Assembly (NCBI GenBank): GCA_007694915.1
Contig: REEV01000133.1
Span: forward strand, 1 to 64,000
DNA: 64,000 bases
Reading direction: 5' to 3'
Origin: Cyanobium sp. PLM2.Bin73
Lineage (GTDB): Bacteria > Cyanobacteriota > Cyanobacteriia > PCC-6307 > Cyanobiaceae
Position 1 is the stretch's first letter; each line of letters begins with the position of its first letter. This document shows positions 31,374 to 45,086 of the stretch, piece after piece. Below the pieces are notes generated by a model, which was given only the letters and a program-made list of their open reading frames with translations, was not told the origin of the DNA and did no database searches. The position numbers and the translations under genes are program-made.

Positions 31374-34697
<3,324 letters not shown>

Positions 34698-34815
34698 GGG
34701 TGCAATGGGCCAAACCCGCTCAGCCTTGCACGATCCCCCGCCGCTGATGGTGGCGATCCACTCGGGACCCCCGATCCCTGTCGCTAACGTGGAACCCGTT
34801 GTGACCTCCGCGTCC

Positions 34816-35451
34816 ATGAGCGAACTCCAGCGCCTCAAGGGGCTGCTGCCGCCGGAAATGCAGAGCTGGGTGTTCGTGGAAGCCGCGGCCTCGATCGATC
34901 CGCCCCTTATTGCGATCGAAGAGATCGGACGTGACGAGATCGAGATCCAGGTGGATCTCGAAACCTGGGATGGCCTGGCGCTGGACCACCGCAACCTGCT
35001 GTTCTGGCATGAGGTGGGCCGCGTCCAGAACGACGCCGTGCCGCGCGACGGCTGGGAGATGGCCGCCCTGGCCATCGGCCTGGGCGGTGCCATCGGCGAA
35101 CTCTGGGTGCAGGACGGGCTGCTGCTGCTGATGGCCCTGGGGCTGTCGGGATTCGCCGGCTACCGCCTTTACCTCAAGAACAACTCCGAAAAGCGCCTGG
35201 CCGATGCCATCGCCGCCGACGAGCGGGCGATCGACCTGGCCTGCCGCTTCGGCTACACCCTGCCCAACGCCTACAAGAGCCTGGGGGGCGCCCTCAAGGA
35301 ACTGGCCGAGCAGACCCGCAAGAAGAAGAAACGCAGCTTCTACGACGACCGCCTCGAAGCCCTGCGCAAGAGCGCCAGCCGGGCCCGGGCCGAAATGGCC
35401 CAGCAGCAGGGTTCGCGCGAGTCGGTCACCAGCGAGAACGTGTATGGCTGA
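34816..35451 (+). CDS. DUF3318 domain protein
   Basis: [73 protein letters not shown]. Confidence 0.8.
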
Positions 35452-37714: not shown

Positions 37715-37861
37715 ATGACCGAGCTGCAACAGGCCCTGCTGATCTTCGCGATCGGCGCCGTGGTCACCCTGACCACCGTGATCATGATCGCCCGGGGCCA
37801 TGCCCGCTGGCACGGCCGCGATCCCTATGACGACCCCAGCCGGGCCGCCAGCCATGACTGA
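37715..37861 (+). CDS. Tiny one-TM protein upstream of SSS transporter
   Basis: MTELQQALLIFAIGAVVTLTTVIMIARGHARWHGRDPYDDPSRAASHD; stop overlaps the SSS start by 8 nt. Confidence 0.65.
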   Translation: MTELQQALLIFAIGAVVTLTTVIMIARGHARWHGRDPYDDPSRAASHD

Positions 37862-39275
37862 GGCACCGCTGCTCGATGCCGGCATTGCCTGGTTTCTGCT
37901 GGTGGCCTTCTCGGTGCTCTGGATCGCCCTGGGGGTGTGGTGGGGCAAGCGCGGCAAGGGCGATGCCGACGACTACCTGCTGGCCGGCCGCAACATCGGC
38001 CTGGCCCTGAGCACCGCCACCCTGATGGCCAGCTGGGTCACCGGCAACACCACCCTGGCGGCCCCGGAGGTGGGCTACACCCTGGGCCTGTGGGGCATGC
38101 TCGGCTACGCCCTGGCGGGCCTGGGGCTGTTTCTGTTCGCACCGCTGGCGATCCGCATCAAGCGGCTGATGCCCACGGCCCGCACCAGCGGCGACTTCGT
38201 TCGCCTGCGCTTTGGCCGGGTGTGCTGGGCGGTGTTCCTGCTGATCACCATGGCCTACACCCTCGGCTTCCTGATCACCCAGGGGATGGGAGCCGGCCTG
38301 CTGCTGCAGGCACTCTCCGGCTTCGACTACCGGCTGGGGATGGTCTGCGTGATCGGCGTGTCCACCACCTACACCCTGTTCGGCGGCATGCGCGGCGTGG
38401 TGGGCACCGACTTCATCCAGTCACTGCTGATCATGGCCCTGCTGGTGCTGGTGGCGGTGCTGGGCTACAGCCGCATCAGCGTGGAGGAGGTCTACGTGGC
38501 CCTGGAGGCCGAGTACCCGTCGCGGCTCAACATGCTGCTGCCGGCCGGGCTGCTGTTCGCCTGGAACACCGGCCTGTTCAGCATGGGCGAGGTGTTCCAC
38601 AACAACATCTGGTGGAGCCGGGTGTTCGCCAGCCGGCCCTCGGTGGTGTTCCGCTCCTTCATTCTCGGCGGCCTGGCCTGGATCACCGTGCCGATCGTGA
38701 CCGGCGCCATCGCCCTGATGGCCCTGGCCACCAACCTGGAGGTGCCCCAGGTGAACATGGTGTTTCCGCTGATCACCGCCGAGCTGCTGGGCAGCGGCGG
38801 CGCGGTGGTGGTGTTCATCATCATCTTCGCCTCGCTCACCTCCACCCTCGATTCACTGCTGGCCGCCAGCGCCGACCTGATCGCCGAGGACGTGGTGGCC
38901 CACTGGCTGCGGCCCGGCATCAGCGATGCCCAGATCCGCCAGGCGGCACGGCTGGTGGTGGTGGGGCTGGGGTTGCTCACGATGCTGCTCTCCTGGCAGT
39001 ACGTCACCTCGATGTTCCAGCTGCTGCTGTTCACCGGCCCCCTGGTGGCCTCCACCATCTGGCCGATCGCCATGGGGCTCTACTGGCCCCAGGCCAACCG
39101 CCAGGCCGCCACCGCCGCCATGGTGGTGGGCACGATCACCGGCCTGCTGGCCTACGTGCTGGTGGCGCCCTACTGCGCCGCCCTGGTGTCAGCGGCGGTA
39201 TCGGCGGCGGTGATGGGGCTCGGCAGCCACTGGAACCCGGAACGCTTCGACTGGCGCCTGCTGGCCGGCCGCTGA
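37854..39275 (+). CDS. Sodium:solute symporter (SSS) family transporter
   Basis: About 13 TMs; DDYLLAGRNIGLALSTATLMASWVTGNTTLAAPEVGYTLGLWG; GTDFIQSLLIM; SLTSTLDSLLAASADLIAEDVV. Confidence 0.92.
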   Translation: MTEAPLLDAGIAWFLLVAFSVLWIALGVWWGKRGKGDADDYLLAGRNIGLALSTATLMASWVTGNTTLAAPEVGYTLGLWGMLGYALAGLGLFLFAPLAIRIKRLMPTARTSGDFVRLRFGRVCWAVFLLITMAYTLGFLITQGMGAGLLLQALSGFDYRLGMVCVIGVSTTYTLFGGMRGVVGTDFIQSLLIMALLVLVAVLGYSRISVEEVYVALEAEYPSRLNMLLPAGLLFAWNTGLFSMGEVFHNNIWWSRVFASRPSVVFRSFILGGLAWITVPIVTGAIALMALATNLEVPQVNMVFPLITAELLGSGGAVVVFIIIFASLTSTLDSLLAASADLIAEDVVAHWLRPGISDAQIRQAARLVVVGLGLLTMLLSWQYVTSMFQLLLFTGPLVASTIWPIAMGLYWPQANRQAATAAMVVGTITGLLAYVLVAPYCAALVSAAVSAAVMGLGSHWNPERFDWRLLAGR

Positions 39276-39712: not shown

Positions 39713-40816
39713 ATGCCGTTCAGCCCGCAGACCGCTCAGCCCACCATCCGCTTCACCCGCCTGGGGCCGGATGTCTACGGCAATGCCCACCCCCAGGCCC
39801 TGCTGCGCGCCATCCGCGAGGACAGCGACGCCCTGCGGGAGCTCACCGAGCAGCACGTGCTCTCCACCAGCCAGTACAGCGCCGTGACGCTGCTGCAGCT
39901 GTTCCGCCTGGCGGCCAAGTTCGAGAGCAACCCCAAGCGCTACACGCGGCACAACAGCCCCCTGCGGGGCAAGATCCTGATCAACGCCTTCTACGAGCCC
40001 AGCACCCGCACGCGCCTGTCCTTCGACAGCGCCTGGCACCGCCTGGGGGGCGACACGATCACGATCACCGACCGCAGCACCACCGGCATCGCCAAGGGGG
40101 AAACCCTGCGCGATGTGGCCGAGATGTTCAACAACTACGGCGACTGCGTGGTGCTGCGCGACACCCACGCCGAGGCCATCTATGAGATGACCCAGTCGCT
40201 GCGGATCCCGATCATCAACGCCGGCAACGGGATCGATGAGCATCCCACCCAGGCGATGGCGGATCTCTACACGATCTTCAAGTGGCGGCCCCAGCTGGTG
40301 GAGCGGGAGGTACCCCCCGAGCAACGCATCCGCATCGGTGTGGTGGGGATCCCCAGCCGCATGCGCACGGTGCGCTCGCTGCTGCGCATCCTGGCCCGGT
40401 TCCCGGCCATGGTGAAGGAGCTGGTGCTGTTCCACGATCCCGGCAGCGATCCGAACGACGGCTACTTCGACCCCGGCCAGCGGGAGGAGCTGGAGGCGGC
40501 CGGACTGCGGGTGAGCACCAGCGACGACCTGCTCAGCGCCGTGCCCGATCTCGATGTGATCTACATCAACGCCATCGCCTGGGTGGGCGACAGCTACGAG
40601 GTGCACGGCCGCAGCTTCCGGCTCACGGCCGATCTGCCCTACCGCAAGGACGCCATCGTGCTCCATCCCCTGGCCCGCGGCCCCGAACTGGGCACCTGCC
40701 TGGATGAGACGGCCCACAACTGGTATTTCTCCCAGGCCCGGGGTGCAGTGTTCATCCGCATGGCCCTGCTCACCTGCATGGTGGAGCGCATCGACCAGGT
40801 GATGGACATCATCTGA
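39713..40816 (+). CDS. Aspartate carbamoyltransferase-like protein with non-canonical acceptor site
   Basis: PSTRTRLSFDSAWHRLGG, AKGETLRD, INAGNGIDEHPTQAMADLYTI, RMRTVRSL, LHPLARG...WYFSQARGAVFIRMALL; the canonical TR.QKER motif is replaced by INAIAWVGD. Confidence 0.9.
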   Translation: MPFSPQTAQPTIRFTRLGPDVYGNAHPQALLRAIREDSDALRELTEQHVLSTSQYSAVTLLQLFRLAAKFESNPKRYTRHNSPLRGKILINAFYEPSTRTRLSFDSAWHRLGGDTITITDRSTTGIAKGETLRDVAEMFNNYGDCVVLRDTHAEAIYEMTQSLRIPIINAGNGIDEHPTQAMADLYTIFKWRPQLVEREVPPEQRIRIGVVGIPSRMRTVRSLLRILARFPAMVKELVLFHDPGSDPNDGYFDPGQREELEAAGLRVSTSDDLLSAVPDLDVIYINAIAWVGDSYEVHGRSFRLTADLPYRKDAIVLHPLARGPELGTCLDETAHNWYFSQARGAVFIRMALLTCMVERIDQVMDII

Positions 40817-40877: not shown

Positions 40878-42947
40878 ATGTGCGGCATCGGCGGCATCTT
40901 CCAGCGCCACAGCGATCAGACCATCGACGAGCAGCTGCTCGTGAACATGGCGGCGATCCAGGTGCACCGCGGCCCCGATGGCTTCGGGGTGCGCAGCCTG
41001 CCGGGCCAGGGGGTGGGCTTCTGCCATGCCCGCCTATCGATCATCGACCTGGACGCCAACCGCGCCCGCCAGCCGTTCGTGTCCGAGGACGGGCAGGTGC
41101 TGATGGCCCACAACGGCGAGTTCTACGACTTCCAGCGCATCCGCGCCGACCTCAGCGCCCGCGGCGTGCGCTTCACCAGCAAGAGCGATTCGGAGATCCT
41201 GCTGCGCCTGTACCAGCAGCGGGGCCTGGAGGACACCCTGCCCCTGCTGCGGGGTGAGTTCGCCTTCGCCCTGTTCGACCGGGCCCGCGACGAGCTGCTG
41301 CTGGTGCGCGACCGCTTCGGCGTCAAACCCCAGTACTGGACCCTCACCGATGAGGGGCTGGTGTTCGGCTCGGAGCTCAAGGTGCTGTTCGCCCACCCCG
41401 GCGTGACCCGGCGGTTCAGCTCCGAGGGCCTGTTCCACCAGTTAATGCAGACGGTGGTGCCGGGCAGCACGGCCTTCGAGGGGGTGCACCAGCTCAAGCC
41501 CGGCCACGTGCTCACGGTGCGCCGCACTGGCGGCACCTTCGAGATCAGCGACCGGCCCTACTGGGACGTGAACTTCCCCCGCCAGGGGGAGCGGGACGGC
41601 AGCCTCAGCGAAAGCGACCACATCGAGGCGGTGCGCGCCGCCCTGCTGCAGGCGGTGGAGGTGCGCATGGTGGCCGATGTGCCGGTGGGCTGCTACCTCT
41701 CCGGCGGTATCGATTCCTGTTCAATCCTCGGCCTGGCGGCGGCGGTGAGCCAGAACCCCGTGCGGGCCTTCACGATCGGCTTCGACGACGCCCGCTACGA
41801 CGAGACCCCGATCGCCACCGAGATGGCCGAGGCCACCGGCGCCGAGCAACTGGTGATGCGCCTGTCGGGCAACGAGCTCTACGGCCACCTGGAGGACACC
41901 ATCTGGCACGCCGAGCGCAGCATCTACAACACCCTGGCGGTGGCCAAGTTCCTGATGAGCCGGGAGGTCAACCGCTCCCACTACAAGGTTGTGATGACCG
42001 GTGAGGGCTCCGACGAGCTGTTCGGCGGCTACCCGGCCTTCCGCCGCGACATGTTCCTGCACGGCCTCGACGATCTGCCGCCGGCGGAGCGCCAGCAGTG
42101 GGAGCAGCTGCTGCAGGAGGCCAACGCCCTGGTGCAGGGGGCGATGCTGGCGGAGGAGCAGGTGCATGACCCCGCCCTGGAGCAGGTGGTGGGCTTCACC
42201 CCCAGCTGCCTGCAGCCCTGGCTGGCCTGCGCGCCGCTGGTGCCGGCGCTTCTGGCCCCCGAGCACCGCCAGGCCTGCGCCGACTACGACCCCGGCGCCG
42301 CCATCGCCGCCGGCCTCGATCCGGCCCAACTGGAGGGGCGCCACGCCCTCGACCGCGCCCAGTACGTGTGGATCAAGACGATGCTCGAGGGCCAGATCCT
42401 CACCTGGGGCGGCGACCGGGTCGACATGGCCCACGCCATGGAGGCTCGCCCCGCCTTCCTCGACCACCACCTGGCGGCGGTGGCCGTGCAGGTGCCGCCC
42501 GAGCTGCGCATCAAGGGCAAAACCGAGAAATACGTGCTCCGCGAAGCCATGCGCGGCCTGCTGCCGGAGGTGCTCTACAAACGGGAGAAGTTCGCCTTCA
42601 TGGCACCACCGGCCCATGCCGACGCCCAGAAGCGGGCGGCGATGCAGACCCTGGCCGACCTTTACCTCAACCCCGAGGCGATCGCGGCGGCGGGACTGCT
42701 CGATGCGGCCGGGGTGCAGGCCCTGTTCGAGCGCCACGACCACCCCGACACCAGCGCGGCCCAGCGGGTGCAGCTGGACGCGGTGATCAACCACCTGATC
42801 TGTGTGCAGATCATGCACAAATTGTTCGTGTCCGCCGACCTGCCCGCCCAGGCCCGGGCCATGGCCGACCGCCTGGGCTGGCGTCTGCACCAGGAGGAGC
42901 AGGCCGAGCCGGCCTACGCCCGCATCGGCATGTCCGCTGCGGACTGA
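40878..42947 (+). CDS. asnB: Asparagine synthase (glutamine-hydrolysing)-like amidotransferase
   Basis: MCGIGGIF (Cys2), RGPDGFG, LSGGIDSCSILGLAAAV, GEGSDELFGGYP. Confidence 0.93.
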   Translation: MCGIGGIFQRHSDQTIDEQLLVNMAAIQVHRGPDGFGVRSLPGQGVGFCHARLSIIDLDANRARQPFVSEDGQVLMAHNGEFYDFQRIRADLSARGVRFTSKSDSEILLRLYQQRGLEDTLPLLRGEFAFALFDRARDELLLVRDRFGVKPQYWTLTDEGLVFGSELKVLFAHPGVTRRFSSEGLFHQLMQTVVPGSTAFEGVHQLKPGHVLTVRRTGGTFEISDRPYWDVNFPRQGERDGSLSESDHIEAVRAALLQAVEVRMVADVPVGCYLSGGIDSCSILGLAAAVSQNPVRAFTIGFDDARYDETPIATEMAEATGAEQLVMRLSGNELYGHLEDTIWHAERSIYNTLAVAKFLMSREVNRSHYKVVMTGEGSDELFGGYPAFRRDMFLHGLDDLPPAERQQWEQLLQEANALVQGAMLAEEQVHDPALEQVVGFTPSCLQPWLACAPLVPALLAPEHRQACADYDPGAAIAAGLDPAQLEGRHALDRAQYVWIKTMLEGQILTWGGDRVDMAHAMEARPAFLDHHLAAVAVQVPPELRIKGKTEKYVLREAMRGLLPEVLYKREKFAFMAPPAHADAQKRAAMQTLADLYLNPEAIAAAGLLDAAGVQALFERHDHPDTSAAQRVQLDAVINHLICVQIMHKLFVSADLPAQARAMADRLGWRLHQEEQAEPAYARIGMSAAD

Positions 42948-43651
42948 GGGGCGGGCTGAGCGGAGCCCGGCTGGGCCAGACCGAGGGTGGTGGGCAGGCC
43001 AGCCCGGAAGCCGGTGTAGTAGTCGTGCTGGGTGTGGTCGAGGATCTCGCGCAGGGCCGCCAGGGGTTCGGGGTGGTGGTCCACCCGGAAATCGCAGTGG
43101 GGGTAGCTCTCCTGATGCATCACCAGCAGGGCGGCTGACTGACGGCCGCGATGGTCGCCGCCATGGGCCTCACCCGCCTCCAGGGCAAGCAGCAGCCGAT
43201 CCTCAAGCACCAGGCCCTGGCGCTCGGCGGCCATGTAGGCCTCGGCCATCGCCAGCAGCACCAGATCGGAGGCCAGGAAGTTGCCGGCCACCGCGAAACC
43301 GGGATAGCAGCGGTGGGCGGCGATGCCGGCGCAGTCGGGACCTGTCCAGGCGGCGCTGCGGCCCTGGGCATCCACCAGCATCACCTGGCGGCCGTCACGG
43401 TCCGGATCGTCGCGCAGCAGCGAGGCCAGCACCTGCTCAGCCCCCTGCTCGCCCTCACTCTGCCGCTGCACCTGCTCGAGGCGGTCGAGACCCCAGGGCC
43501 CGAAGTAGGGATTGGTGTTGGCCTGGGTGGCCACGGCCCCCACCCCGGGGCGGGCATGGGGCACCAGGGAGCCCACGGCCAGATGCTTGGTGGCCACCCC
43601 CACACCGGTCATGCCGGTGAGCGCATCCCAGGCCACGATCGAGAAGGTCAT
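42914..43651 (-). CDS. DUF1028 family protein
   Basis: MTFSIVAWDALTGMTGVGVATKHLAVGSLVPHARPGVGAVATQANTNPYFGPWGLDRLE: DUF1028 signature; overlaps the asnB 3' end by 34 bp. Confidence 0.9.
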   Translation of the reverse strand: MTFSIVAWDALTGMTGVGVATKHLAVGSLVPHARPGVGAVATQANTNPYFGPWGLDRLEQVQRQSEGEQGAEQVLASLLRDDPDRDGRQVMLVDAQGRSAAWTGPDCAGIAAHRCYPGFAVAGNFLASDLVLLAMAEAYMAAERQGLVLEDRLLLALEAGEAHGGDHRGRQSAALLVMHQESYPHCDFRVDHHPEPLAALREILDHTQHDYYTGFRAGLPTTLGLAQPGSAQPAPQSAADMPMRA

Positions 43652-43826: not shown

Positions 43827-45086
43827 ATGAGCCAGCTCCTCACCGCCACCCCCACCGACCTGGCCGCTGACGGTGCCCGGCTGGCCCGCAGCCTCGAGGA
43901 GCTCGGGCAGATCGGCCGCCTGCCCTCCGGCGCCGTGCGGCGGCTGGCCTTCAGCGCGGAGGACCAGGCCGCCCGGGTCCTGGTGCGGCGCTGGATGGAG
44001 GAGGCGGGCATGGCCGTGCGCATCGACGCCGCCGGCAACCTGATCGGCCGCTACGACGGCCTGCGCCCCGGGGCTCCGGTGATCGCCACCGGCTCCCATA
44101 TCGACACCGTGCCGGAGGGAGGCCTCTACGACGGAGCCCTGGGGGTGCTGGGCGGCATCGAGCTGGTGCGGGTGCTGGCCGAGCATCAGGTAAGGCTGCA
44201 GCACCCGATCGAGGTGATCGCCTTCGCCGACGAGGAGAGCACCATGGTGGGCTGCAAGTCGATGGTGGGGCACGCCGACGACGACCCCGCCAGCTACACC
44301 ACCGCCCTGGGGGTGCCGATCCAGGAGGGACTGGCCCGCATCGGTGGCGACTGGGAGCAGCGCCCCGGTGCCCGGCGCAGCCGCCGGGAGATTGCCGCCT
44401 TCCTGGAGCTGCACGTGGAGCAAGGGGGCGTGCTGGAGGCCGTGGGCAAGCAGATCGGCGTGGTGGAGGGGGTGGTGGGCCAGCAGCGCTACACCATCCG
44501 GGTCAGCGGCCAGGCCAACCACGCCGGTACCACACCGATGGAGATGCGCCGCGACGCCCTCACCACCGCCGCCCAGATCATCCTGGCCATCGAGGACATG
44601 GCCCTGCACTACCCCGGCGATCCGGTGGCCACGGTGGGCAAGCTCACGGTGTGGCCCAACGCCGCCAACATCGTGCCCGGCCAGGTGGAGTTCACGCTCG
44701 ACATGCGCGATCTCTCCCACGACGTGATCAACCACATGAAGGCCCAGCTGGAGCGGCGCATCGAGACGATCGCCGTAGCCCGGCGCACCCGCATTTCCAT
44801 CACGCCCCAGTTCGTGGTGGATCCCAGCCCCGCTGATCCGATGGTGCAGGAGGTGATCAGTGGGGCCTGCGCCGAGCTGGGCCTGAGCTACACCCACCTG
44901 CCCAGCCGCGCCAGCCACGACGCCCAGGAACTGGGGCGGCTCACGGCCATGGGCATGATCTTCGTGCCCAGCCGCGACGGCGTGTCGCACTCCGCCGATG
45001 AGTTCACCTCCCCCCAGCAGTGCGAGCAGGGCGTGAATGTGCTGCTGCACAGCCTGATCCGCCTGGATGCCAGCCTCTGCGGCTGA
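43827..45086 (+). CDS. M20-type hydantoinase/carbamoylase family amidase (AllC/HyuC-like)
   Basis: Metal ligands in ATGSHIDTVPEGGLYDGALGVL, IAFADEE, FLELHVEQGGVLE, PSRASHDAQEL; HSADEFTS. Confidence 0.93.
   Translation: MSQLLTATPTDLAADGARLARSLEELGQIGRLPSGAVRRLAFSAEDQAARVLVRRWMEEAGMAVRIDAAGNLIGRYDGLRPGAPVIATGSHIDTVPEGGLYDGALGVLGGIELVRVLAEHQVRLQHPIEVIAFADEESTMVGCKSMVGHADDDPASYTTALGVPIQEGLARIGGDWEQRPGARRSRREIAAFLELHVEQGGVLEAVGKQIGVVEGVVGQQRYTIRVSGQANHAGTTPMEMRRDALTTAAQIILAIEDMALHYPGDPVATVGKLTVWPNAANIVPGQVEFTLDMRDLSHDVINHMKAQLERRIETIAVARRTRISITPQFVVDPSPADPMVQEVISGACAELGLSYTHLPSRASHDAQELGRLTAMGMIFVPSRDGVSHSADEFTSPQQCEQGVNVLLHSLIRLDASLCG

Follow-up and report, generated by a model that had tools for sequence, protein, structure and literature searches.

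Which substrate does an ATCase-like carbamoyltransferase accept when the residues that would bind the side chain of aspartate are missing? The question is raised by a gene of Cyanobium sp. PLM2.Bin73 that lies in a 64,000 nucleotide stretch of contig REEV01000133.1 (the window). The answer that we prefer, and regard as likely, is that the protein is an L-glutamine N-alpha-carbamoyltransferase of the ATCase branch that functions in a pathway to N-carbamoyl-glutamine amide (CGA); acceptor, product, direction and role are all inferred. The gene and the neighbours that enter into this reading are as follows.

37800..39275, + strand, sodium:solute symporter family protein (PF00474)
39713..40816, + strand, ATCase-like carbamoyltransferase (OTCase superfamily, complete carbamoyl-P site, INAIAW and HPLAR signatures)
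40878..42947, + strand, AsnB-type glutamine-dependent amidotransferase of 689 aa (GATase domain with N-terminal MCGIGG, and Asn_synthase domain)
42914..43651, - strand, DUF1028 protein (PF06267, 224 bits)
43827..45086, + strand, M20 hydantoinase/carbamoylase-family amidohydrolase (TIGR01879, 420 bits, cut-off 204)

The open frame at 39713-40816 (+) encodes 367 aa with Pfam matches to OTCace_N (142.9 bits, cut-off 29.9) and OTCace (44.7 bits, cut-off 29.4). Alignment with E. coli PyrB (K-12 record NC_000913) shows that STRTR is kept at 97-101 and that K128, R149, H177, Q180 and R218 occupy the positions of K84, R105, H134, Q137 and R167 of E. coli ATCase. The carbamoyl-phosphate site is thus intact, as the sequence-only reading had held. 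In ATCase, R167 and K84 hold the alpha-carboxylate, and R229 and Q231 are the ligands of the beta-carboxylate. Both beta-carboxylate ligands had been described as replaced by Ala, and this is what the alignment gives: DILYMTRVQKER of E. coli PyrB aligns to DVIYINA-IA-----WVGD, with T228 corresponding to N286, R229 to A287 and Q231 to A289, and the KER stretch of PyrB (from about K232 on) is replaced by WVGD, the Trp of which is W290. Only the E. coli motif as first quoted, DVIYVTRVQKER, departs slightly from the true PyrB sequence. The INAIAWVGD stretch aligns likewise with plant and archaeal ATCases. The HPLxR motif does occur as HPLAR, at H318-R322, where PyrB has HPLPR. An AlphaFold model of the protein has a pLDDT of 83.5, and its best Foldseek matches are all ATCases, PALA complexes among them; the pocket argument rests on the alignment, not on distances in the model.

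The substitutions are common to a family. A genome scan yielded 194 relatives of the carbamoyltransferase, of which 80 were kept; these come from Cyanobium, Synechococcus, Prochlorococcus and Aphanocapsa, and also from many marine or saline Gammaproteobacteria (Idiomarina, Pseudidiomarina, Aliidiomarina, Kangiella, Pleionea, Pseudoalteromonas and others). N286, I288, A321, R218, R149, H177, Q180 and K128 are invariant in the 34 aligned members, and W290 is conserved in at least 90% of them, with the consensus INAIAW. The residue changes therefore do not reflect chance drift of a single gene. A maximum-likelihood tree places the family in a clade of its own (100/100 support), separate from PyrB and ArgF.

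Could the protein still be a divergent aspartate carbamoyltransferase for pyrimidine synthesis, or a backup PyrB? Its nearest known folds and sequences are ATCases, and it shares with PyrB (TIGR00670) the fold, a complete carbamoyl-phosphate site and the R167 equivalent, with 34% identity to the E. coli protein in the alignment. It differs from PyrB in the Ala/Ala pair, in HPLAR, in a longer N-terminus and in its location outside any pyrimidine operon, and it occurs beside a real PyrB. When a canonical pyrB was sought elsewhere in the host genome, three superfamily members were found: ArgF (HCLPA), a PyrB that keeps RLQKER, and the present carbamoyltransferase. The presence of a separate, normal PyrB and ArgF implies that the third protein is not the pyrimidine enzyme. 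Exactly three such paralogs are encoded in 14/14 further host genomes, and in the 10 of these that were inspected the other two are of the ornithine/acetylornithine and PyrB types. Moreover, the protein scores below the PyrB cut-offs (184 vs 237 bits for TIGR00670; 182 vs 263 for PRK00856) and fails the ligand test for PyrB, with Ala287 and Ala289 in place of R229 and Q231. Its patchy occurrence as an accessory gene of the Cyanobiaceae (57/271 genomes, 10/34 genera) and its constant pairing with AsnB also argue against a divergent or backup PyrB, a reading that we consider largely refuted already and to which we assign almost no weight. The sequence-only conclusion that this is not the pyrimidine-pathway enzyme is therefore well supported by the separate RLQKER PyrB and ArgF, the score below cut-off and the distinct clade.

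The protein likewise fails the test for ornithine carbamoyltransferase, having HPLA instead of HCLP and a TIGR00658 score of 96 vs 281 bits. Transferases of the OTCase type (ornithine, N-acetylornithine, putrescine and others) share with it the superfamily and the carbamoyl-phosphate chemistry, and their various acceptors indicate that the superfamily switches its amine acceptor in evolution. The carbamoyltransferase differs from them in that it lacks HCLP, scores far lower and falls outside the sampled ArgF clade; an ornithine-type or putrescine transferase is ruled out by the profile scores. It belongs to the ATCase/OTCase superfamily without passing the PyrB ligand test, and we would class it as a known type of enzyme with a novel acceptor.

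Gene neighbourhoods were compared across 98 loci. In 97 of them the carbamoyltransferase gene is followed, at a median gap of 21 bp, by an AsnB-type gene of the same orientation, and the sole exception is a locus at a contig end. The symporter gene is found within 4.5 kb in 54/54 proteobacterial loci outside Ectothiorhodospira and in 9/34 cyanobacterial loci plus the window, and near the carbamoyltransferase gene in 0/10 Ectothiorhodospira loci. A gene for the M20 protein, whose best solved relative is the N-carbamoyl-L-amino acid hydrolase 3n5f (324 bits), is nearby in 29/34 loci of cyanobacteria, in 10/10 of Ectothiorhodospira and in 29/54 of the others. The DUF1028 gene is present in 27/34 cyanobacterial loci and in no proteobacterial locus, and a gene encoding an isochorismatase-type amidohydrolase occurs in Ectothiorhodospira and eight other loci.

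Most proteobacterial loci also encode a small protein of ~145-190 aa directly before the symporter gene (clusters cl4, cl50 and cl91). Inspection by eye suggests a signal peptide and a single transmembrane segment at the C-terminal end, and the protein could possibly be an accessory subunit of the symporter. Examples are listed here.

L036:7900-8439, + strand, small pre-symporter protein
L038:7883-8434, + strand, small pre-symporter protein
L068:8018-8455, + strand, small pre-symporter protein

Other genes in the window do not recur in this way. A gene recognised from its sequence as carB (carbamoyl-phosphate synthase large chain; 31374-35093, -) is located ~4.6 kb from the carbamoyltransferase gene, probably by chance, with no recurrence noticed in other lineages. 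Upstream of the symporter gene is a gene of the L-asparaginase II family (PF06089; 36438-37406, +) that is not conserved with the cluster elsewhere. A functional tie to asparaginase II, to a GMC oxidoreductase or to CarB is not supported, as these neighbours fail to recur in other lineages.

The pairing of a carbamoyltransferase with an amidotransferase implies an amino acid that is carbamoylated at its amino group and amidated at its carboxylate, and thus an uncharged molecule. In the pathway that we propose, the carbamoyl group of carbamoyl phosphate would be transferred to the alpha-amino group of L-glutamine to form N-carbamoyl-L-glutamine, the C1 carboxylate of which would then be amidated by the AsnB-type enzyme. 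The symporter may serve in uptake or recovery of the solute or a precursor. Solute that is no longer needed could be broken down by the linked hydrolases, where the M20 carbamoylase would have a recycling function and its partner would be the DUF1028 protein in cyanobacteria and the isochorismatase-type amidohydrolase in Ectothiorhodospira. It is possible that the DUF1028 protein is an amidase of this catabolic branch, a role that is inferred only. Glutamine fits as the acceptor because the ligands of the alpha-carboxylate (the R167 and K84 equivalents) are kept and those of the side-chain carboxylate are lost. This agrees with the initial suggestion of a different acceptor, possibly one with a neutral side chain, although the acceptor itself remains an inference.

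The scheme has a parallel in the NAGGN pathway (AsnO, TIGR03104), where C-terminal amidation of an N-blocked glutamine compound by an AsnB-type enzyme also leads to an uncharged osmolyte; the N-cap is acetyl there, whereas here it would be a carbamoyl group from the carbamoyltransferase. The NAGGN pathway itself was rejected as an assignment because the AsnB-type protein is far under the TIGR03104 cut-off (315 bits vs 570), and AsnB from a sister species of Ectothiorhodospira marismortui reaches 305 bits.

CGA has been reported as a compatible solute from E. marismortui (PMC1224877), and from this one organism only (PMC3857566). We set as a test the prediction that E. marismortui must carry the carbamoyltransferase and AsnB pair. 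A genome that matches E. marismortui DSM 4180 by the assembly figures printed in PMC8877833 (G336) contains a gene row of M20, isochorismatase-like hydrolase, carbamoyltransferase and AsnB, adjoined by a gene for a MarR-type regulator. The only other OTCase-superfamily proteins in G336 are PyrB (RLQRER) and ArgF (HCLPA); with these accounted for, the carbamoyltransferase is the only unassigned member of the superfamily. Gene context and occurrence in this genome together point to L-glutamine, with its neutral amide side chain, as the acceptor, an inference drawn from the product known in E. marismortui and not from docking. The predicted product is the same as the CGA of E. marismortui, and the cluster lies in a genome matching that organism, but CGA has been known as a compound only. 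In the open-access literature, which omits most subscription journals, we found no biosynthetic gene for CGA (described in 1991), no described glutamine carbamoyltransferase and no report of salt-induced expression of the carbamoyltransferase gene in marine cyanobacteria.

Of 369 sampled Gammaproteobacteria, 25 gave a match to the gene, two or three of the matches being distant paralogs (only ~40% identical), and ~6% of the 369 have the gene. Six of the 369 are phototrophs, and the gene is present in two of the six, both from the single genus Ectothiorhodospira. All sampled genomes of this genus contain the cluster (10/10), and 41/47 genomes of its GTDB family contain the gene. In one Ectothiorhodospira genome (G389), the encoded HiPIP is 100% identical to PDB 1hpi, the E. 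vacuolata protein. The structure paper for 1hpi is cited in PMC5439954. Another genome in the genus (G120; 55% GC, one HiPIP) resembles Ectothiorhodosinus mongolicus (55.6% GC), for which a genome survey found betaine and ectoine biosynthesis to be missing and named CGA among the possible solutes (PMC7824335). The carbamoyltransferase gene of Ectothiorhodospira sp. BSL-9 (L154:9653-10656, -) is interrupted, just past RLGG, by what looks like one frameshift, which marks either a recent pseudogene or a sequencing error.

The carbamoyltransferase and its amide-forming partner probably make CGA, a product that is inferred without assay data, and several points count against it. There are no biochemical or metabolite data for any member of the family, and enzymes of the AsnB type are also capable of making side-chain amides, lactams or peptides. 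The gene occurs throughout Ectothiorhodospira and in most of its GTDB family, but CGA has been reported from just one of these organisms, in which it is only a minor solute. Furthermore, the tie to E. marismortui is genomic, not genetic, and the Ectothiorhodospira cluster is without a symporter. The pair might instead make the N-carbamoyl amide of another amino acid, such as asparagine or glutamate (the latter with the amide on either carboxylate), or Ectothiorhodospira and the cyanobacteria might use different acceptors. The identity of an acceptor cannot be read from sequence, the cyanobacterial and Ectothiorhodospira carbamoyltransferases are about 58-60% identical, and the accessory genes vary by lineage. 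However, the pocket signature INAIAWVGD is common to both lineages, and a glutamine derivative is the sole known product of such chemistry in a cluster-bearing organism; we regard another acceptor as unlikely, while keeping it in view.

A reversed direction is harder to defend. The cluster could scavenge nitrogen if an N-carbamoyl amino acid or amide entered through the symporter and was hydrolysed by the M20 enzyme, and if the carbamoyltransferase ran backwards to yield carbamoyl phosphate, and the combination of a symporter with an N-carbamoyl-amino-acid hydrolase does resemble an uptake-and-degradation module. Degradation would have no need of the constant partner (97/98), an AsnB that consumes ATP and glutamine. 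In addition, no hydrolase is nearby in 25/54 of the other proteobacterial loci, and no Ectothiorhodospira locus has a symporter. Scavenging thus appears very improbable to us.

If the synthesis of CGA is the correct reading, as we favour, two candidate genes for it are now named, an acceptor specificity with a clear residue basis is added to the aspartate/ornithine carbamoyltransferase superfamily, and a probable misannotation as PyrB, to be expected in many genomes, is corrected. That the solute would serve osmotically in the cyanobacteria and marine proteobacteria is an inference. With less assurance than for the enzyme itself, we lean towards a hitherto unassigned two-enzyme CGA pathway with a wide distribution among marine Synechococcus, Prochlorococcus and halophilic Gammaproteobacteria, and with CGA as a common nitrogen-rich marine solute. 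If this is true, CGA would be produced by marine Synechococcus and by Prochlorococcus, and would be a widespread marine solute and no longer an oddity of one purple sulfur bacterium. The proposal predicts in these two genera an unmeasured organic-nitrogen osmolyte with four nitrogens per molecule, which bears on marine dissolved organic nitrogen and on heterotrophs that possess the symporter and the carbamoylase.

Some additional sequences deserve mention. Three gammaproteobacterial paralogs (L164:9235-10239, L165:2495-3472 and L107:1495-2565, all on the - strand) are ~40% identical to the Kangiella protein and lack the carbamoyl-phosphate motif, with STRTR changed to NSRSHTR or VNQTR and HPTQ to HPTN or NPSQ. 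No AsnB neighbour is present at L164 and L165, the only two of these loci that were checked. These paralogs are possibly non-catalytic or repurposed transferases. On a contig labelled Trichodesmium MAG_R03 (L025, 533-1609) there is a copy of the cluster that resembles the Prochlorococcus one; its carbamoyltransferase is 63% identical to the query, a level like that of Prochlorococcus, and binning contamination is the likely cause.
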